Below, in pieces: positions 29,224 to 61,578 of a DNA stretch of 64,000 bases. Each line of letters begins with the position of its first letter. The first letter of the stretch is position 1. The DNA comes from Sulfurospirillum barnesii SES-3 (GTDB lineage Bacteria; Campylobacterota; Campylobacteria; Campylobacterales; Sulfurospirillaceae): contig NC_018002.1 in the NCBI RefSeq assembly GCF_000265295.1, positions 372,001-436,000 of the forward strand, read 5' to 3'. The position numbers and the translations under genes are program-made. Below the pieces are notes generated by a model, which saw nothing but the letters and a program-made list of their open reading frames with translations, was not told the DNA's origin and did no database searches.

Positions 29224-29769
29224 TTATATGCAAAGAGTCAATACTCCTGTTATCATTGATACTAAAGAACTTACTTCAGAGCTACGAGTAAGAAGCTCCC
29301 CTAGTGTTTGTTGAATACCAACTTTATCTGAATGTTGTAGTTTCAAAATAATCTGTTCTTTATCCGATAAGTGAGATTTGTTGATAGCTTCTATTAATTC
29401 AAGAAGCTTTTGGTCTAAAGGTGATTGAATAGTATTGCCATTACCATTAACAGCATTTCCATAATTGTTTCCATGAATATTTAAGACGTTATTGTAGGTT
29501 ACTTCTGTTCTTTCGATTTTAGAATATTGCTTTTTATCGTTATTTTGAAGAAAATTTCGCCCATCGAATGTTAAACCACGAAAAGTATATAATTTATCAG
29601 TTAGATACCAAGATCCTTTTTTAATAAGCCCATCATTTTCTATTTTTTCTATTAGAATTTTAAACTCATCATATTCTAACTCGAACTCTTCTGGATAGAT
29701 ATCACTGCCCGCTTTTTGTTTTCCTAAGAAATCCATAATTTCATTGTATTTTGCCTCAATTGCCGTCAT
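29224..29769 (-). CDS. Unrecognised accessory protein, winged-helix-like N-terminus
   Basis: 181 residues, AT-rich. The N-terminus (about 1-80) looks like a small winged helix (YDEFKILIEKIENDGLI, then LTFDGRNFLQNN), similar in shape to YjcQ-type proteins. A short Gly/Asn repeat follows (IHGNNYGNAVNGNGNTIQ), then a helical segment and a hydrophobic end (SSLVSMITGVLTLCI) that may touch the membrane. Gly/Asn linkers of this kind occur in some defence or signalling proteins, but that is only a resemblance. It sits beside a toxin-antitoxin pair; no integrase nearby. Confidence 0.6.
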   Translation of the reverse strand: MTAIEAKYNEIMDFLGKQKAGSDIYPEEFELEYDEFKILIEKIENDGLIKKGSWYLTDKLYTFRGLTFDGRNFLQNNDKKQYSKIERTEVTYNNVLNIHGNNYGNAVNGNGNTIQSPLDQKLLELIEAINKSHLSDKEQIILKLQHSDKVGIQQTLGELLTRSSEVSSLVSMITGVLTLCI

Positions 29770-38146: not shown

Positions 38147-40519
38147 ATGCATATCATTAATGATTTTTTCTTGCTCGTTTGGAGTGAGAGGTTAGATAAA
38201 AATGTTGTTTTTGACGAGAAAAATAGAGCCAAACTCGATCAAACTCTTTCAACTGCTTTTGATAATTTTTGCGATAGTGCAGCGATTTTATGTATCATTA
38301 GCCCACACAATTTTGCCAATATGGCAAGCCTTGAAGAACCAAAATCTCTTTTAAAAACGCTTTTTGAAACCTCTTCTTTTACCAAAGAGATAGTTCAACA
38401 TGCACAAATCCAACTCCTTTTGTATTTAATTAATTTAGGCAATCTTCGTGTCAATCAAGCAATTATCAAACGATTAGAATACCTCAAAAAAGAAGGGATT
38501 ATCTCATATGACGTAGAGCGCTCCATTAGCGGTGTTCTTTCTCTTATTGAAGAGAAAAAAATTGAAATAGCATCGTTACATGTAAAGCGTTCAAGCACAC
38601 AAGAAAACTACTATAAAACGGCTTTGCATTCTCTCTCAACAGCCATTGAAAATATAGCCCAAGCGCTTGAAATACCACGCTTAAAAGAGCGTTTAAATCT
38701 CATTCCTGAACGCTTAGCCAATCAGCGTTTTTCCATTGGTATTACAGGCGTGATGAATGCTGGCAAATCAACCATGCTCAATGCTCTCTTAGGTGAGGAG
38801 CTTTTAGGCACATCGGTGGTGCCAGAAACGGCCAACTTAACAGTGATAAAATATGCCAAAGAGCCTTATGCTGTCGTTAATTTTTGGAATGCCAAAGAGT
38901 GGGGAAACATTGAAAAAGGCTCCCAAACACTCAAAAGTCTTGAAGCCTTTGTTAAAGAGAGCAAAGCGCATTTTGGAGAAAAATTTAATACATTAGTGAG
39001 TGAAAAAGGGGTAAGTGAGCGCATCAGTGTGAACGATTTAGCCCTTTACACCTCTGCAAAACACTCCGATAAAAAGTGCAATTTGGTCAAAAGTGTTGAA
39101 CTCTATACCGACCTGAAATTTGTGCAAGAGGGGGTTCAAATTGTAGATACCCCAGGTTTAGATGACCCCGTGATTCAGCGTGAAGAGATTACGCTAGAGT
39201 ATTTAAGTGAATGTGATTTGATGATTCATTTAATGAACGCCGCACAAGCCGCAACGCAAAAAGATGTTGATTTTATTATTGATGCGCTTTTGTACCGCAA
39301 TGTTGCACGATTGTTAGTCGTGATTACCCGTATTGATGCCATTAAAGAAAAAGAGTTACAAGAAGTCATTGCCTATACCAAACGTAGCATTGAAGCACGC
39401 TTGAGGGAGCAAAACAAGGGTGCAAAACTCGATGAAATTATTGCTAAAATCGTTTTTATTCCTATTGCTGGAAAATTGGCACTGATGCACAAATTAGGGC
39501 GTGAGCAAGAGGCTTTAGCTTTAGGCTATGATATGCAAAAAACAGGCTTACCGTTGGTGGAGGCTTACCTTGAAGAGGTACTCTTTGGTAGTAACAGTCA
39601 AAAAGCAAATCTGATTATTGCCTCCAATCAAAAAGAGATAGAATCCATTATTGAAGAATCCCTGCGAAGTTTTGAGCAGGAGTTTCAGCTCTTGAATCTC
39701 TCAAACGAAGAGATTGAGCAAGCATACGCCAAACATCAAGACGATAAAAAAGCAATGATGCACTTTTTAGAGCAGATTAAAAGCAGTGTTGCTCAAAGTA
39801 AAGAGGAGATGCGTAACTACTTTACCACCTTACAAACCTTTGCATCCAACCGTTTAAGTACACTGCAAAACGTCCTGAAACGTCGTATTAGCGATGATGT
39901 AAGTTATGAAATGAGTAAGCATAAAAAATTGCCCAAAGAGGAGCGTGTGGCTTCCATTATTGAAACAGCGATGAAAGATGGCATGGTCGATTTGGTACGG
40001 GATTATCGCTATGAGTTTCAAAAAAAGATGCAAAGTGCTTTGGAGTATATGGATGCAAAATACGGTGAATTTAAGAGCGATGCAGGTGAACGCACCTTTG
40101 ATGCTAAAGCCTTTTGCGAAGAGCATTTGAGCTCTGTTTTGCTCTTTAAAAACAGCTCAGTTGTGATTGCAGGAGTCAATGATGCCATTAAAAAACAGGG
40201 CAAAAACGACCTGAGTGCGCTTAATATGAGCCTAGATGCACTGTTTAACGAAGAGTTTTCTGGAATGAAAGCGATGATACACGAGAAATTACGCACGATT
40301 AATGAAACGCTTTTAGAGTCGTTTTCAATACTGATTCAAGCCCCAGCTTCTGCCATTGAAGAGCGTTTTTTAGGCGAGGAGGCATTGCTTGAAAATGCCA
40401 TGCGTCAAATGAAAGATGCAACGCAAAACCGTGAAGCACGCATGCTTGAGATTAAAGAGAAAGAGCGTGTTTTAGGCATTGTTTTAGATGACTTACATGT
40501 ATTAAAGGAGTCCAAATGA
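38147..40519 (+). CDS. Dynamin-like GTPase, first of pair (DLP1-like)
   Basis: 790 residues. After a 190-residue helical N-terminus come the G1 loop GVMNAGKST (about 201-209), DTPGLDDP (G3, about 333) and VITRID (G4, about 394), with a long helical stalk to the end. C. jejuni Cj0411/Cj0412 form a similar adjacent pair that assembles a heterotetramer tethering membranes (known). Likely a membrane-remodelling role at the inner membrane. One TTACATGTAA, read as Leu-His-Val. It overlaps DLP2 by 4 bases. Confidence 0.87.
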   Translation: MHIINDFFLLVWSERLDKNVVFDEKNRAKLDQTLSTAFDNFCDSAAILCIISPHNFANMASLEEPKSLLKTLFETSSFTKEIVQHAQIQLLLYLINLGNLRVNQAIIKRLEYLKKEGIISYDVERSISGVLSLIEEKKIEIASLHVKRSSTQENYYKTALHSLSTAIENIAQALEIPRLKERLNLIPERLANQRFSIGITGVMNAGKSTMLNALLGEELLGTSVVPETANLTVIKYAKEPYAVVNFWNAKEWGNIEKGSQTLKSLEAFVKESKAHFGEKFNTLVSEKGVSERISVNDLALYTSAKHSDKKCNLVKSVELYTDLKFVQEGVQIVDTPGLDDPVIQREEITLEYLSECDLMIHLMNAAQAATQKDVDFIIDALLYRNVARLLVVITRIDAIKEKELQEVIAYTKRSIEARLREQNKGAKLDEIIAKIVFIPIAGKLALMHKLGREQEALALGYDMQKTGLPLVEAYLEEVLFGSNSQKANLIIASNQKEIESIIEESLRSFEQEFQLLNLSNEEIEQAYAKHQDDKKAMMHFLEQIKSSVAQSKEEMRNYFTTLQTFASNRLSTLQNVLKRRISDDVSYEMSKHKKLPKEERVASIIETAMKDGMVDLVRDYRYEFQKKMQSALEYMDAKYGEFKSDAGERTFDAKAFCEEHLSSVLLFKNSSVVIAGVNDAIKKQGKNDLSALNMSLDALFNEEFSGMKAMIHEKLRTINETLLESFSILIQAPASAIEERFLGEEALLENAMRQMKDATQNREARMLEIKEKERVLGIVLDDLHVLKESK

Positions 40520-42540
40520 GTCTTTTAGAAAATTTTGTTAACTCCTATAAAGCGAACTTTTTAAAAGCTGTTCCTACCTTTGATGCAACACTTTTGGGTG
40601 CGCTCAAAAAGGTACAGTATGTTCTTTTAGAAGAAAAACAGTATCCCTCTATTCAGCTCAAAAAAGCGTTAGATCGCCTTCAAATGCGCTCTGAAGAGCC
40701 AATGAAAGTAGCCATTACGGGGCAATTTTCCAGTGGAAAATCGACCTTTTTAAATGCTTTACTCGCCAAGAGTATTTTGCCTACAGGCATTACACCCGTG
40801 ACTTCTAAAGTGAATTATATTCGCTATGGAGAAGCGTTTAAAATTCGTGTACGCTACAAAGATGGCAGAGATGAATACCACGATATTAGCAATATTTCCC
40901 ACTTTACCGACCAAAGAGGTTCGGTGGAAGATATTGCGTATTTGGTCTTATATGCCCCTCTTAATATTTTAAAAGATGTTGTCTTTGTGGATACCCCAGG
41001 TCTTAACTCTCAAGCAGCCAGCGATACGCAAACGACTGAGAAGGTGCTTAAAGAGGTTGATGGAATTATTTGGTTAACGTTGATTGACAATGCGGGAAAA
41101 ATGAGCGAGCTTCAGGTTTTAGAGGAGTATTTAGGCAAGTACCAAAACAAATCACTGTGTGTTTTAAACCAAAAAGATAAATTTACGCCAGAACAAGTGG
41201 AAGAGACAACCAACTATGTTAAAAGCGCTTTTCAAAAATTCTTTAGCGATGTCATTCCTATCTCGGCACGTCAAGCGTTAGAGTCACGTAGCCATGATAA
41301 AAAAGTGATGATGCAAGAGTGCTTAGATACGTTTATAAGCGATTTACATGTAAAGCTCAAAGAGGGCTCTGAAAGGCTTGACTTTAAAGCCATTGAGAAT
41401 GATTTTAAAGCGTATCAACAGACCGTAGAGACTATTGTACAAAGTGATTTAAGTGCCAATATGAAGCTTCTTGAAGATTCAAATATTGATAAAGTTTTAG
41501 AGTTTATTCGAAGTGAAATTCAACCCAAATCAACCCAGTCCAAAGAGTTTGCCATCACTAAGGAAATTCAAGAGATTACCGCTAAACTCATCGCCCAACA
41601 TGAACTTTTTTTAAGCATTTACGATGAGCTTTTAGAAGAGATTGTTCGTTTCGAAGCAGAAGCAAAGGGATTGTTTACGGAGCTTAAGAGTAAATTTTCC
41701 CATGATTTAAAGAGTGCGTTTATGCGTATTGAGCAGATTATTGATACCATTGCCGATGCTATTTTTAACCAAATTACTACCGAGAAATTGGTACGGTATG
41801 AGGTACAAAAAGGAGGCTTGCTCAAAAAGAGTGTAAATTACCTTCCTTTTGAATACCAAGCACCAAAAATTAACTCGGATTTAATTTACAAAAGCCTTTT
41901 TTATGAAGAGAATTTAATTGGCAAAATGTTTAAGCAATATGTGCGCACTTTAGGAGATATTCAAAACGAAGTGAATGAAAAAAATGCGCAAGTGTATCGC
42001 TCATTTGAAGCGGGTGTTGTGGCGTGGCAGGCACCTTATGAAGTCATTCGAAAAAGTGAAGAGATTCACTCGGACATTGAGTTTGCCAATATGCGTCGTT
42101 TTGCCTCTAAAGCGTATGAGACGATTTTAAAAGCCTTTAGCGATGAGATAGCCAATTCCTATGCCAAAATTAGCTCTGAGTTTAACCACCTCTCCAGTGC
42201 GGTGAGTTTTAACTATCAAAATGCAACCGAAGTGTGTGTAGCATTTTTGGAAAATAAAATTGAAAAATCACGTAAATTGTATGAAGAAAATCCCACCAAA
42301 TTTTCTTTGTATCAGCCTAAATTAGACGAAATTAAAGAGCGCCTTAGAACAGCGTTTCATCTTTATGAGCTAGAAAATATGATGAACACCAAACACACCT
42401 TTTTAAGCAAAGATTATGAGCGTTTGGTGAGTCAATTCACCCGTTTAAAAGAGGAAAAAGTGGCATTTTTAGAAGAGAAAAAAGCGCATCATCAAGAGAT
42501 TATTTCATCCATAATGGCTTTACAAAAAGAGGTTTTATAA
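40516..42540 (+). CDS. Dynamin-like GTPase, second of pair (DLP2-like)
   Basis: 674 residues. G1 loop GQFSSGKST (about 69-77), DTPGLNSQ (about 158), LNQKDKF (G4, about 217). The helical stalk includes a hydrophobic stretch near 410-430 that could be the membrane paddle. Expected partner of the preceding protein through translational coupling (ATGA overlap). One TTACATGTAA inside. Confidence 0.87.
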   Translation: MSLLENFVNSYKANFLKAVPTFDATLLGALKKVQYVLLEEKQYPSIQLKKALDRLQMRSEEPMKVAITGQFSSGKSTFLNALLAKSILPTGITPVTSKVNYIRYGEAFKIRVRYKDGRDEYHDISNISHFTDQRGSVEDIAYLVLYAPLNILKDVVFVDTPGLNSQAASDTQTTEKVLKEVDGIIWLTLIDNAGKMSELQVLEEYLGKYQNKSLCVLNQKDKFTPEQVEETTNYVKSAFQKFFSDVIPISARQALESRSHDKKVMMQECLDTFISDLHVKLKEGSERLDFKAIENDFKAYQQTVETIVQSDLSANMKLLEDSNIDKVLEFIRSEIQPKSTQSKEFAITKEIQEITAKLIAQHELFLSIYDELLEEIVRFEAEAKGLFTELKSKFSHDLKSAFMRIEQIIDTIADAIFNQITTEKLVRYEVQKGGLLKKSVNYLPFEYQAPKINSDLIYKSLFYEENLIGKMFKQYVRTLGDIQNEVNEKNAQVYRSFEAGVVAWQAPYEVIRKSEEIHSDIEFANMRRFASKAYETILKAFSDEIANSYAKISSEFNHLSSAVSFNYQNATEVCVAFLENKIEKSRKLYEENPTKFSLYQPKLDEIKERLRTAFHLYELENMMNTKHTFLSKDYERLVSQFTRLKEEKVAFLEEKKAHHQEIISSIMALQKEVL

Positions 42541-56343: not shown

Positions 56344-57507
56344 CTAGGTCTTGAGTGTTTCATCGTAAAGTTTGATACAGTTTCTTCCACTATGTTTTGC
56401 ATGGTAGAGCGCTATATCTGCGTATTTAAACGCCTCTTGAAAGTCTTTTGCTTGATGGGGGAAGAGATTGACCCCCACGGAAATAGTAATCTGTATAGAA
56501 GCTTCTTCGGAAATACTAAAGGCAGTCTTTTGAATGGCGTTAAAAATACGCTCAATGACATTAAGGGCAATAAGATGATTGGCATTTTTATCAATTTTAG
56601 CCAAAATTAAAAATTCTTCTCCTCCATAACGAATAACAATGTCATTGTCCTTACGAATGGTTTGCAAAAGAGTATGGCCAATTTGCGTTAAAACTTTATC
56701 TCCCACAGCATGACCATAAGTGTCGTTTATTTTCTTAAAATAATCAATATCCAACGCTGCTATAACATATTCATTGAGGTTGATGAGAGATTCATATTTT
56801 TGAAGGTAGTTGCGATTGTAAACACTGGTAAGTTTGTCTGTAAAAGCACTCTTTTTAATGGAACTAAACCGCTTGGTTTGAATAATAACAAAGATAAGGA
56901 CAAGTGCAATAACGCCCATGATTCCAAAAATACCATTTTGAATGGTTTGAATAATATGATTAATTTCTTGAATTTTATTGATAGAAAAATCAATCGCCAA
57001 AATTAGCTCTACTTCACCGTGATTTAAGATGGGGATTAAATAGCTAATAGAGAGTTGCTGCAAGAGGGTATGGCGAATAACAAGAGGTTCTTTTGTAGTA
57101 TAAATCTCCAGCCATTCAGGTCCCTCTACATCAAATTTTTGATCAAGAAAGGACTTCTCTTCTTCAAAAGAAGCATCGCCTAAAAAACGAAAAATGCCGC
57201 GTTCATCTCGGTAAAGAAGGTAAGCATATTTGACATGTGGGGTCACTAAAACATTTAAATGCTCTTCAACTCTTTTTTGGAGAAAATGGTATTTTTTTAA
57301 GGCTTCTGGATAGCTAGCATTCCCTTTTAAAAGGTTTTCTATAGTGCGTGCGTTGTTATGCGTGATTGAAAAAATATCTGATGTAGAGATCTCAAAAATC
57401 TTTGTCTCAATACGCTTTTCAAGTTGTATTGTGGCAAAGAAAATGGAAAGCAAAATAGATACGATGAGCACCAAAGGAGCGAAAAGGTAAAAGCTATTTT
57501 GACGCAT
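56344..57507 (-). CDS. Membrane diguanylate cyclase (GGDEF)
   Basis: 387 residues. TM1 about 7-28, a periplasmic sensor of about 160 residues, TM2 about 192-213, then a GGDEF domain with the active motif RYGGEEFLIL and DIDYFKKINDTYGHAVGD for GTP and metal binding. It should make c-di-GMP in response to a periplasmic signal. The start overlaps the preceding stop (TAATG), so it is coupled to the small periplasmic protein and the TonB receptor. Confidence 0.9.
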   Translation of the reverse strand: MRQNSFYLFAPLVLIVSILLSIFFATIQLEKRIETKIFEISTSDIFSITHNNARTIENLLKGNASYPEALKKYHFLQKRVEEHLNVLVTPHVKYAYLLYRDERGIFRFLGDASFEEEKSFLDQKFDVEGPEWLEIYTTKEPLVIRHTLLQQLSISYLIPILNHGEVELILAIDFSINKIQEINHIIQTIQNGIFGIMGVIALVLIFVIIQTKRFSSIKKSAFTDKLTSVYNRNYLQKYESLINLNEYVIAALDIDYFKKINDTYGHAVGDKVLTQIGHTLLQTIRKDNDIVIRYGGEEFLILAKIDKNANHLIALNVIERIFNAIQKTAFSISEEASIQITISVGVNLFPHQAKDFQEAFKYADIALYHAKHSGRNCIKLYDETLKT

Positions 57508-57962
57508 TAGAAACTCTCAATAAATTGGTGAAAGTTTTGAGGCAGCGTAATAGCTTTTTCCTCAAGTCTTTTTTGACTAAAAACAATATTGGGGCGACTC
57601 TTATTCCAAAAAAGTGCTCCAAAGAAATGTTTGTTGGAGAGCAGTTTTCGGTAATTATTGGTAAAGAAGAGACGTTTTTTAGTCGAAGGACAAGGAGGCA
57701 TCTCTTCGGCTTTATTGATAAAGATAAAATTGGCTTTTTCACACTCTTGTGTTAGTGTAAAATAGTTTGTATAGACCTTCTCTTCCATGCTAGAGATATT
57801 GGGGATAAAGAGTGTAATGTTCTCTTCTAAAGAGGCGGAAGCAATTTCATAAATAATTTTTGCTTCTAACTCGACTTCTTTACTGTAGGGTTGGACTAGA
57901 AACGTGTAGTGTTCTGCATAGCAAAGATGCACAATGATTAGACTTAAGTAAAGCGCTTTCAT
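57507..57962 (-). CDS. Small periplasmic protein, possible sensor partner
   Basis: 151 residues from the ATG overlapping the receptor stop (TAATG). Signal peptide (MKALYLSLIIVHLCYA), then an alpha/beta periplasmic domain with FIFINKAEEM, RLFFTNNYRKLL, FFGALFWNKSRPNIVF. The strand/helix order is reminiscent of YfiR-like proteins that restrain a membrane diguanylate cyclase, but I cannot assign a family. The position between a TonB receptor and a GGDEF enzyme supports a relay role. Confidence 0.6.
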   Translation of the reverse strand: MKALYLSLIIVHLCYAEHYTFLVQPYSKEVELEAKIIYEIASASLEENITLFIPNISSMEEKVYTNYFTLTQECEKANFIFINKAEEMPPCPSTKKRLFFTNNYRKLLSNKHFFGALFWNKSRPNIVFSQKRLEEKAITLPQNFHQFIESF

Positions 57963-59875
57963 TAAAAGACCCATTTAAATGAAACAGTGATGCTTCTATC
58001 GTTATCATCTAGGGTAAAAGCATTGCTTCCAAAATTGGTAAAGTAGAGTGATTGTGTTGATTTGTTTAAAATATTGGAAGCTTTAAGGCTGTAACTTAAA
58101 TCTTTTGTCACATGATACGTTGCTCCTAAACTGACATCAAAACTATCGGGAATATCAAGTCCCAAATAATCATAACCGTTTCTATAAATAAGAGAAGTAA
58201 AGTAGTCAAATTTTTGATAACCGCCCATCAATTTGATAAATCCACCTTTGGTAGAATTATTGATTTGTTCGCTTAGTGTGGATGTGTAGTAGTTCAGATG
58301 GAGTTTGTCTCGTTTGGAGAAGGAGTATTCATAATCAAAAATAAGCCCATCGGTTTTTATGGTATGGTCTATATTAACAAAACCAATAGGCGTTTGATAG
58401 AGAAAATCATCAATTTCTACATGATCAAAGGTAATACCAAATTTTGAGTTTCCCTCTGTATACACCGCTTCAAGCGTATAGAAATTGTAGCGCTGAGATT
58501 TAAGATTGACAGCGTTCTTTTTTGCATAATCTACGTTATAAAACGAAGGTGTTAGGGCTGTTTGGGTATAGAATGCTTTAAATCCAAAATGGGGTGTAGG
58601 TGTATAAATAGCACCAATACGTAAAAGCTTTTCATCGTTATCTTTGAGATACGCATTGCGGTCATAATAATCAAGTTTTGCGTTCGCAACTATGAGGAAA
58701 TCCTCTTTAAGCTGATAGCTCTCTTGAAGCAACACTGAAGAGATGGTTTCTCGTTTAAAGCTATTGTAATGGTCTATTTCATTTGTTTGGTTTAGGAAAT
58801 TGGTGCTTTTTCTTTTTAAAACATCATACGTTTTATGTTTCACATTGAGTGCTAGAATCAAGGCGTTTTTATCACTTTCAAACGATTTTGAAACATACGC
58901 ATTGCTTTTCATAAACCGTAAATCTTCTTGAAAGTTTTTTGGAATACTCCCTGGAATACTAAGGTCTATTAAGGGCGTGATATTGATGCCTTGATCATTG
59001 ACTTCTTCATAACTGCGCTCATTCATATCGAATGAAAAATTGGCTTTGAGGGATTGGTCTTCAAGAAAAGAGTGTGTGTAGTTGAAGAAAAAGTCTTTTG
59101 AGAGGCTTTTCCCATCATTAGGCGTAGCATCAAGTGCAAGCCCTGTGTAGTTGTTTTTGGAAACATCTGTGTAGGCTAAATTCATTTTGGCTGTATCGTT
59201 GCTTACATCAGCGTAAATATAGTGTTTTATGCCATTACTATTGAGTTTTTGATGGTTGTAATGGCTTGTTTTTTTTATTTTTTCTTGATTGGCAAAGAAG
59301 AGATAAGACCAGCCATTTTCAAAAATATGTGAATGGGTGATGCTTTGAGCATTGCCTTGTTTAGAGGAAATCCAACCTGTCAGTTCGGAGCCGTCTTCTT
59401 TGCGTGCGGATTTGGTGTAGATGCGAACAAAATAGATTCCTGTTTCATTGCCAAAGGAAAAAGAACTCTCTCCATAATAAATTTCAACGTGGTCGACAAA
59501 ATCTAAAGGTAAATCACCCCAAGAAAGTGAAGTGGATTGGTCGTAGCCTGAACTAATTTCATGGTCATTGATAAAAAAGCGGAAAAAGCCACTGGTGGTT
59601 GTCTTCGAACCAGTTAAAGAGTAGTTGGTGAGTCCAAATTGATTGGTGTTGAGGTTAAAAAGGGGTAATTCTTTTAAAATATCATTGAGTTTTTGATACT
59701 GCATAAGGCGAATTTCTTTTTGAGAATAAATGATGACATGCCCAATTTTTTCATTGACCGTTTGCAAGGAGTTTTCAGATGTCGATTGATACTCTTCTAG
59801 GAGCGTATCGAGTGAATCGGATAGGAGTAAACTACTAAAGAGACCAAGAATAAACACAGCTTTAAAGAAGGGCAA
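57962..59875 (-). CDS. TonB-dependent outer membrane receptor
   Basis: 637 residues from a TTG with AAGGA upstream (this ribosome site adjoins TTACATGTAA at 59884). Signal peptide, plug domain (about 45-165, ILKELPLFNLNTNQFG, VDHVEIYYG), then a barrel ending in SFKWVF with terminal Phe. The ligand is unknown; no siderophore, haem or cobalamin gene is beside it. Its short plug and the operon with a GGDEF enzyme suggest signal reception as well as uptake. Confidence 0.85.
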   Translation of the reverse strand: MPFFKAVFILGLFSSLLLSDSLDTLLEEYQSTSENSLQTVNEKIGHVIIYSQKEIRLMQYQKLNDILKELPLFNLNTNQFGLTNYSLTGSKTTTSGFFRFFINDHEISSGYDQSTSLSWGDLPLDFVDHVEIYYGESSFSFGNETGIYFVRIYTKSARKEDGSELTGWISSKQGNAQSITHSHIFENGWSYLFFANQEKIKKTSHYNHQKLNSNGIKHYIYADVSNDTAKMNLAYTDVSKNNYTGLALDATPNDGKSLSKDFFFNYTHSFLEDQSLKANFSFDMNERSYEEVNDQGINITPLIDLSIPGSIPKNFQEDLRFMKSNAYVSKSFESDKNALILALNVKHKTYDVLKRKSTNFLNQTNEIDHYNSFKRETISSVLLQESYQLKEDFLIVANAKLDYYDRNAYLKDNDEKLLRIGAIYTPTPHFGFKAFYTQTALTPSFYNVDYAKKNAVNLKSQRYNFYTLEAVYTEGNSKFGITFDHVEIDDFLYQTPIGFVNIDHTIKTDGLIFDYEYSFSKRDKLHLNYYTSTLSEQINNSTKGGFIKLMGGYQKFDYFTSLIYRNGYDYLGLDIPDSFDVSLGATYHVTKDLSYSLKASNILNKSTQSLYFTNFGSNAFTLDDNDRSITVSFKWVF

Positions 59876-59975: not shown

Positions 59976-60386
59976 TTATTTTTTACCAGAACATCGTCTA
60001 CAAATGCCATTCATGACGATAAAACTACTATTTATTTCAAATCCACTTTGAGAAGAAATGGTTTCTAAAAGAGCTTTTGTTTCTACAAATATATCTTCGA
60101 CACTCCCACATTGTGAACATAAAAGATGCACGTGTGGAACTTTCTTAATCTCGTATTGTTGTTTTTGATGCGGTAGCTTAACTTCTTCTAAAATATGAAA
60201 AGAAATTAAATCATTAATGTTGCGGTAGAGGGTGGCTTTAGACATGGTAGGGTATTTTTGTGTAATACTTTCGTAAAGGGTATCAATGTCAACATGCCCA
60301 AATCGTTCAATGCAATCTAAAATAGCCAAACGCTGATGGGTTGATTTTAAATTGCTAGCTTTTAAAATATCTTTGAATCGTTCCAT
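59976..60386 (-). CDS. Fur-family regulator (PerR/Fur-like)
   Basis: 136 residues. N-terminal winged helix (THQRLAILDCIERFGHVDIDTLY, SKATLYRNINDL), hinge, then the metal domain with HVHLLCSQCGS and CRRCSGKK, the two CxxC zinc sites of Fur/PerR. It divides a gap of 163 bases with cytochrome c peroxidase, a typical PerR target, so peroxide control is the best guess. AAAGG ribosome site merges with TTACATGTAA at 60397. Confidence 0.85.
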   Translation of the reverse strand: MERFKDILKASNLKSTHQRLAILDCIERFGHVDIDTLYESITQKYPTMSKATLYRNINDLISFHILEEVKLPHQKQQYEIKKVPHVHLLCSQCGSVEDIFVETKALLETISSQSGFEINSSFIVMNGICRRCSGKK

Positions 60387-60471
60387 AAATTAACCTTTAC
60401 ATGTAAAAGAATATTTTATAAAAGTATGGCTTAGTATGCTATTAACAAAACGTAACAGACAACTAAATGAA

Positions 60472-60495
60472 AATTAATTCTAAACAATATTAATT
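60472..60495. promoter_or_regulatory. AT-rich inverted repeat upstream of cytochrome c peroxidase
   Basis: AATTAAT (60472-60478) and ATTAATT (60489-60495) are exact arms 10 bases apart, 22 bases before the TACAAT at 60517-60522 that is the likely -10 box. Candidate site for the divergent Fur-family protein, although spacing differs from the classic 7-1-7 box. Confidence 0.35.
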
Positions 60496-60549
60496 ACTAT
60501 TTAAGATAAATATTCATACAATGACTTACAATCTTAAAAAGGAGAAGAA

Positions 60550-61578
60550 ATGCAAATTTCTAAGGTTATTGGTCTTTGTGCACTCAGTGCAACGGTTGTT
60601 TTTGGTGCAAGTAGTTTGGTTCAAAAGGTAAAGGATAATGGCATTGAAGCCATTCCAACGAGTCAATTGGAGATTCTTAAACTGATTGATGACCCCAAAG
60701 ATCCTATAACAGATGCAAAGGTAGAATTGGGCAAAAAACTCTACTTTGACCCTAGAATGTCAAAAAGTTCCTTAATTAGCTGTAATACCTGTCATAATTT
60801 AGCTTTGGGTGGGGTCGATGGCATTGCTGCAGCCATTGGACATGGTTGGACAGCCAATCCAGCACACCTGAACTCTCCAACAGTCTATAACTCTGTTTTC
60901 TTTAAAGCACAATTTTGGGATGGTAGAAGTCCCCATTTAGCGGATCAAGCACAAGGCCCCGTTCAAGCAGGTCCTGAGATGGCTGCACCTCCAAAATTGG
61001 TAGAAGAGCGTATCAATTCTATTCCAGAATATGTGAATGCTTTTAAAGTTGCTTACGGTGATAGCGTTAAAATTACTTTCGAGAAAATTACGGATACGAT
61101 CGCAACATTTGAAAAAACGCTTATTACGCCCTCACGTTTTGATGATTTTATGAATGGGAACGAGAATGCGCTTTCAAAAGCAGAAAAAGAGGGCTTAGAG
61201 GTTTTTATGGATAAAGGATGTGCTGCATGTCACAACGGTATTGCCTTAGGGGGCACGATGCAACCATTTCAAATTGCTGCAAAATATAAATTTGCTTCTT
61301 TAGGAGGCTTTCAAGGGGATAAAGATGGTATGGTTAAAACCCCAACGCTTCGAAACATTAGCGAAACAGCACCGTATTATCACAATGGAGCCATTTGGAC
61401 ACTTAAAGAAGCCATTCAAGAGATGGGAAGTACACAACTTGGTATTAGTATTAGCGATGCAGAGAGTGCAAAAATTGAAACCTTCTTAAAGGCATTAAAA
61501 GGAAGAAAACCTACGATTGTCTATCCAGAATTGCCTGAAAGTACTGCAAAAACGCCAAAGCCTGACGCTAAGCTCTAA
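60550..61578 (+). CDS. Di-haem cytochrome c peroxidase
   Basis: 342 residues. Signal peptide ending FGASS; two haem c sites, CNTCH (about residue 78) and CAACH (about 225). LGKKLYFDPRMSKS, NSPTVYNSVF and KTPTLRNIS follow the CcpA/MauG family. It reduces H2O2 in the periplasm with electrons from cytochrome c. AAGGAG precedes the ATG. Confidence 0.94.
   Translation: MQISKVIGLCALSATVVFGASSLVQKVKDNGIEAIPTSQLEILKLIDDPKDPITDAKVELGKKLYFDPRMSKSSLISCNTCHNLALGGVDGIAAAIGHGWTANPAHLNSPTVYNSVFFKAQFWDGRSPHLADQAQGPVQAGPEMAAPPKLVEERINSIPEYVNAFKVAYGDSVKITFEKITDTIATFEKTLITPSRFDDFMNGNENALSKAEKEGLEVFMDKGCAACHNGIALGGTMQPFQIAAKYKFASLGGFQGDKDGMVKTPTLRNISETAPYYHNGAIWTLKEAIQEMGSTQLGISISDAESAKIETFLKALKGRKPTIVYPELPESTAKTPKPDAKL

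Follow-up and report, generated by a model that had tools for sequence, protein, structure and literature searches.

How a signal from outside the cell might be carried across the envelope to set cyclic di-GMP (c-di-GMP) is the question raised by three adjoining genes of Sulfurospirillum barnesii SES-3; to our knowledge, the outside signals which set c-di-GMP are mostly unknown. The genes lie on the minus strand of a stretch of 64,000 nucleotides (nt), referred to here in its full length as the window, which was taken from the single 2.5 Mb contig of this genome (NC_018002.1, 372,001-436,000). A preliminary description of this DNA had read them as a TonB-type outer-membrane receptor, a small secreted protein and a membrane GGDEF enzyme, and this reading was borne out, the open reading frames (ORFs) being as stated and the first and third matching the Pfam families PF07715 and PF00990, respectively. 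We propose, with a probability of roughly 0.6, that the three genes encode a dedicated trans-envelope relay which sets c-di-GMP.

A conserved unit of three genes

Three genes are conserved together as a unit, those of the receptor, of the small secreted protein and of a membrane protein which bears one particular Cache sensor. A scan of a genome collection with the small protein found 149 kin, the best 80 of which were analysed as loci; by their titles, nearly all of these 80 are from Campylobacterota and a few from Aquificota, the closest titled kin of the window's small protein being records of Campylobacterales and of the Sulfurospirillum type. A long ORF stands in both the receptor place and the output place (that of the cyclase gene in the window) at 67 of the 80 loci, the receptor place being filled in 71 and the output place in 74. 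Two genome samples, 44 genomes of the window's family and 298 genomes drawn from the phylum, were then searched separately with two profiles, one built from 70 sequences of the small protein (A2) and one from 20 sequences covering the sensor half of the output (A3). Each profile gave 40 matches spread over 30 genomes of the family, and the small gene and the sensor adjoin in 40/40 cases, with a gap of -5 to 41 nt between them. A receptor profile (A6, 27 sequences) gave 42 matches, a receptor being found at 1380-1440 nt from 37 of the 40 family small genes; two of the other three lie at contig ends, and in the third (G015) the receptor is about 3.5 kb off. The phylum draw gave 63 matches for each of these two profiles, spread over 53 genomes for the small protein and 55 for the sensor, with 59 paired, and when both draws are combined the small gene is paired with the sensor in 83 of 87 cases. 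Co-occurrence in other genomes, which the preliminary description had named as a check, is confirmed by these counts: the trio is real and far from chance.

The gene junctions are similarly tight. In the window, the receptor gene (57962-59875, minus strand) starts with TTG and encodes 637 residues, and the predicted cyclase gene (56344-57507, minus strand) encodes 387 residues with a PF00990 match (E 1.8e-37) and a GGEEF motif. The two TAATG stop/start overlaps through which the genes had been described as joined were both verified, at 57964-57960 between the receptor and small genes and at 57509-57505 between the small and cyclase genes. As the ATG within the first of these is the second one of the small gene, which was listed as an ORF of 155 residues (57507-57974, minus strand), the likely start is residue 5, giving a protein of 151 residues (57507-57962); the four residues before it arise when the last codons of the receptor (KWVF) are read in a shifted frame. 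Across the loci, an overlap of 1 or 4 nt is found between the receptor stop and the nearest in-frame start of the small gene in 57 of 70, and between the stop of the small gene and the nearest output start in 36 of 73.

Among the 13 loci which do not have both long ORFs, the receptor is cut by the contig end in four (L048, L064, L074 and L082), is split over two frames in L059, and at L061 the 893 nt available contain no receptor ORF. The set of L102 has decayed, with its receptor in pieces, and the other six (L067, L068, L069, L070, L085 and L088) lack an output, a receptor or both, as set out below. The unpaired cases of the two draws comprise four small genes and four sensors in seven stretches, all of which were read: G087 holds a receptor, a small gene and a kinase with a different sensor; G184 a receptor and a small gene with no output; G115 the three genes in a different order, which yields one unpaired small gene and one unpaired sensor; and in G245 and G066 weak sensor matches lie inside other proteins; the other two stretches, of G162 and G314, are described below. 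Receptors read in two frames were seen at L059:2600-4513 and L171:6309-8194, and the receptor frames of G015 and G022 are short.

A single Cache sensor with exchangeable outputs

The window's cyclase has two transmembrane-like stretches (residues 9-27 and 191-210) around a single periplasmic Cache domain (residues 28-190; 56938-57426, minus strand), which was modelled with a predicted local distance difference test score (pLDDT) of 86.0. Its best crystal match is the WalK receptor domain 4ywz_B (Z 14.6, 140 aligned residues, 2.7 Å), and Pfam models of the Cache type match few of the sensor kin (MCP-like_PDC_1 3/20, dCache_1 2/20). Neither a HAMP domain nor a YfiN-type sensor was found in the cyclase, for which Pfam gives two matches besides GGDEF, both below the cut-off; PDB and Pfam searches with the alignments of the small protein and of the sensor returned no useful relative. 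The GGDEF domain (residues 221-376 by Pfam; 56380-56847, minus strand) keeps the GGEEF and the catalytic motif, while the RxxD inhibitory site (I-site) is absent from its usual place. Its domain and motifs predict that the window's output is a diguanylate cyclase.

The output behind this sensor is exchangeable, the same Cache domain being joined to GGDEF, to GGDEF-EAL or to a histidine kinase which is accompanied by a response-regulator-EAL gene. By motif, the output carries GGDEF in 73 of 76 cases, is a kinase in two and is cut in one. An alignment of 55 long outputs has GGEEF in 52 and AGEEF in three, the glutamate of the EAL column in 55/55 and DDFG in 50/55. An EAL-only output, suggested by motif for L177, was discarded as Pfam shows GGDEF and a cut EAL there. 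On a tree of 74 small proteins, which has few columns, the GGDEF-only label needs at least six changes, and the window together with L033 and L034 is nested in a clade of ten rows which otherwise carry GGDEF-EAL (support 100/97), thus suggesting that the window's lineage has probably shed its EAL domain, a direction which we infer from this tree of few columns.

The genome of the window also carries a second set, made up of a receptor, a small gene and a histidine kinase (L134:2091-5879), with a response regulator-PAS-EAL gene (L134:5892-7892) lying 12 nt behind it. Where a kinase set has a small protein and a sensor of the window type, a response-regulator-EAL gene follows in 10/10 sets read (Pfam); these ten are L134 and L168-L176, the latter nine having been chosen by the length of the output frame and all coming from two lineages only. 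A further locus, L105, is cut by its contig end. Judged by domains and motifs, the catalytic end in nearly all sets read is c-di-GMP metabolism, situated either in the sensor protein itself or reached via a kinase and its EAL regulator. Separately, a short HAD-like gene (153-160 residues, identified by eye) was seen after the small gene in L067, L068, L069 and L137, which have no output.

A putative relay across the envelope

The small protein has no Pfam or NCBIfam match, and its family is named by neither. Judged by eye, its N-terminus is a predicted signal peptide, modelled as a helix at residues 2-19, and the model (pLDDT 88.8) is a small alpha-beta fold of which the best solved match by VIA-align is YfiR of Pseudomonas aeruginosa (4xjy_D, Z 10.3, 123 aligned residues, 3.2 Å, 8% identity). 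The fold assignment is based on the coverage and Z of VIA-align and not on Foldseek, in which 3lkv and 3lft lead with E-values that fail 0.001. For YfiR itself, 3LFT and a Vibrio cholerae protein are reported to be structural neighbours (PMC4655355). Four residues (W123, K125, R127 and P128) are invariant in the 70 small-protein sequences and two cysteines, C78 and C96, nearly so, the latter pointing to a possible disulfide. The family of YfiR, PF13689 (DUF4154), was not matched by the window's protein (E<=10), nor did it appear in the family listings of 17 kin (E<=1), and a first hhalign probability of 89 for DUF4154 membership proved to come mostly from the signal peptide, falling to 10 once signal peptides were cut. 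As the profile comparison is weak without them, the protein is here given a YfiR-like fold rather than a place in the YfiR family. No match to the window's small protein, nor to the DUF4154 protein of L113, was found on plasmids.

True DUF4154 proteins do occur in comparable company. In the sets L113, L115 and L140, which come from other Campylobacterota, a TonB-receptor gene adjoins one of YfiR type, with an output that is GGDEF-EAL, GGDEF or a kinase; the small proteins of these sets are true members of PF13689, and kinship of receptors and sensors with those of the window was compared for the L140 sensor only. At L115:1429-2973 a DUF4154 domain is fused N-terminally to GGDEF (Pfam) behind the TonB-receptor gene, and in G314 a genuine DUF4154 gene stands in a row with a gene for a TonB receptor and one for a kinase that has the window's type of sensor (E 2.9e-21); the fusion and the mixed set make it likely that YfiR-type proteins act directly on the output. 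In L116 a DUF4154 domain forms the N-terminus of a long protein, hybrid kinase-like by eye, beside a receptor-like gene.

The window's receptor matches the plug family PF07715 with 31.5 bits (cut-off 23.9), its sole Pfam match at E<=10, so that no STN domain was seen, and a PDB sequence search gave no match at E<=1. Of nine set receptors scanned, five exceed the cut-off for PF07715 (the window, L036, L045, L109 and L136), L073 lies just below it and L134, L081 and L174 have no match; the barrel family PF00593 is above its cut-off of 27 in one of the nine, the close kin L036 (36.3 bits), and is unmatched by the window's receptor and the others. The signal peptide is followed by a conserved segment of the mature receptor (residues 20-45; 59741-59818, minus strand) with the pattern LLxxYxxxSxxSxxTxxExxG, in which conservation over 72 receptors reaches 0.99 at G45, 0.97 at T39, 0.96 at L25, 0.94 at L26 and 0.93 at E42; a version in which L, L, S, T and G are required is present in 51 of the 72. 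The segment sits where a TonB box would lie, and the role given to it below is putative. A strict TonB-box pattern is found in 1/72 set receptors compared with 10/11 of the other receptors of the genome, from which it was drawn, but it separates poorly, as among another 25 receptors from the genus (two of which were read at the wrong place) it finds only 10. The independence from TonB at which this pattern hinted is kept solely within a minor alternative, being weakened both by that result and by exbB, exbD and tonB genes directly upstream of the receptor in L045, L047 and L049 (Aliarcobacter, two isolates; by Pfam for L045).

In the relay that we propose, the receptor would change state on binding a ligand outside the cell, and its conserved N-terminal segment, expected to face the periplasm, would hold or release the YfiR-like protein. 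Once free, this protein would sit on the Cache domain and lower (or raise) the activity of the cyclase, in the way that YfiR acts on YfiN. The window's output would be able only to make c-di-GMP, its lineage having probably lost the EAL domain still present in most relatives. A broader proposal, that docking of a YfiR-like shuttle on a receptor segment and its passage to a Cache domain with several outputs, nearly all of them directed at c-di-GMP, constitutes a third signalling route of TonB receptors, besides transport and STN-FecR, is put forward tentatively, and we would sooner doubt it than adopt it. In full-text searches of literature which excluded bioRxiv and most subscription journals, none of the papers listed deals with such a set, as judged by titles and the beginnings of abstracts.

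The closest comparison is with YfiBNR (TpbB) of P. aeruginosa and YfiR-DgcN-YfiB of Escherichia coli, which likewise combine in one operon an outer-membrane part, a small periplasmic protein of the YfiR fold and a diguanylate cyclase of the inner membrane that has a sensor in the periplasm (the gene order was read for E. coli); HmsCDE of Yersinia is a further system of this type. The outer-membrane part of YfiBNR is an OmpA-like lipoprotein, whereas that of the window is a TonB-type receptor, and no gene for such a lipoprotein (YfiB) was found among the genes beside the window's small and cyclase genes. The periplasmic protein of YfiBNR belongs to PF13689, which the window's small protein does not match, and its cyclase has a YfiN-type periplasmic domain and HAMP, whereas in the window a single Cache domain and no HAMP were seen; unlike YfiBNR, the window-type unit also has an exchangeable output. 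The preliminary description had called the two systems analogous but not homologous in all parts, and this fits, the fold being YfiR-like, with no demonstrable kinship in sequence and with a different outer-membrane part and sensor. By this analogy, we lean towards a unit which works like YfiBNR and is set apart from it by family match, outer-membrane part and type of sensor.

A TonB-type receptor which reports an outside ligand to the inner membrane, as proposed here for the window's, is found in FecA-FecR-FecI. That system uses an STN domain, FecR and FecI, while no FecR or FecI gene was recognised beside the window's receptor; the window's set differs further in having a soluble periplasmic protein as the putative relay and c-di-GMP, not a sigma factor, as the predicted output. 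Trans-envelope signalling of the FecA-FecR-FecI kind is named for Campylobacterota in one source (PMC9239204).

Several observations weigh against the relay. The output is absent in L067, L068, L069, L085 and L137, the receptor is missing upstream in L088 and the small gene of L070 has neither, which means that the parts can occur separately; G162 holds a degenerate kin of the small gene standing without a set. Behind the kinases of L136 (window-type small protein, other sensor) and G314 (window sensor type, DUF4154 protein) there is no EAL gene. The distance correlations of 0.88-0.94 do not demonstrate contact, as genes of one operon are co-inherited anyway. The likeness to YfiR is itself faint in sequence: against a mixed DUF4154 set the mature small protein reaches an hhalign probability of 10.2 (E 0.003, 116 columns), and this is 0.3 against five true DUF4154 members and 0.1 against a weak group, with reversed controls at 1.1-1.3. 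Lastly, substrate-binding proteins almost tie with YfiR in the structural comparison (3lft_B, Z 9.8; 6hni, Z 8.3).

This near-tie, together with the order of the Foldseek matches, fits the alternative which survives best, that the small protein is a ligand carrier: the receptor would import a solute with TonB energy, a one-lobe binding protein would be loaded with it, dock on the Cache domain and switch the cyclase. Periplasmic binding proteins are known to switch sensors, e.g., NspS-MbaA of V. cholerae, in which a periplasmic protein likewise acts on a membrane GGDEF-EAL protein, although that system is not known to include a TonB-type receptor and NspS is a two-lobe binding protein. The exbB-exbD-tonB genes of the three Aliarcobacter loci also point to active transport. 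However, the mature small protein, of about 135 residues, has one lobe and no two-lobe pocket, and its top solved match, if by little, is the repressor YfiR; we regard the carrier as unlikely, if worth keeping in mind.

A simple uptake operon, in which a nutrient enters through the receptor with the small protein as a helper in transport or in folding, and is sensed by the Cache domain itself with no protein relay, appears to us improbable. Cache domains usually bind small ligands directly, and the Fur-family gene upstream of the receptor hints at metal or iron regulation; against this, the genes adjoining the window's set include no evident transporter, and the small gene keeps with the sensor across all output types, which an uptake helper need not do. 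A sensor of envelope stress, as proposed for YfiBNR, in which the state of the envelope is reported and the receptor barrel is a scaffold, is the least credible reading; the YfiR-like fold and the rarity of the strict TonB-box pattern speak for it, the poor separation by that pattern and the exbB-exbD-tonB genes beside three receptors against it.

To return to the proposed relay, a single short operon here connects a receptor of the outer membrane with one cyclase, and the unit occurs in many Campylobacterota and some Aquificota genomes. If the relay is real, c-di-GMP could be manipulated directly through the ligand of the receptor, and the outputs swapped behind one sensor would offer a natural series for studying how signals are passed on in the periplasm. 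On the broader, tentative reading given above, S. barnesii SES-3 might possess two relays of opposite sign, with the GGDEF protein of the window making c-di-GMP and the kinase of the second set acting through its EAL regulator to break it.

Neighbouring genes and other features of the window

The small and cyclase genes have as neighbours the TonB-type receptor gene, a Fur-family regulator gene and an endonuclease gene. The Fur-family gene (59976-60386, minus strand) lies 100 nt upstream of the receptor on the same strand, and a gene of this family is found upstream of the receptor in 10 of the 80 loci, eight of the window's clade and two of Persephonella, in which another gene stands between the two. 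A divergent gene for a di-haem cytochrome c peroxidase adjoins the Fur-family gene by the receptor (59976-61578). Farther away in the window are an ORF of 181 residues with no Pfam match at E<=0.001 (29224-29769) and a tandem pair of dynamin-family GTPase genes which overlap by 4 nt (38147-42540).

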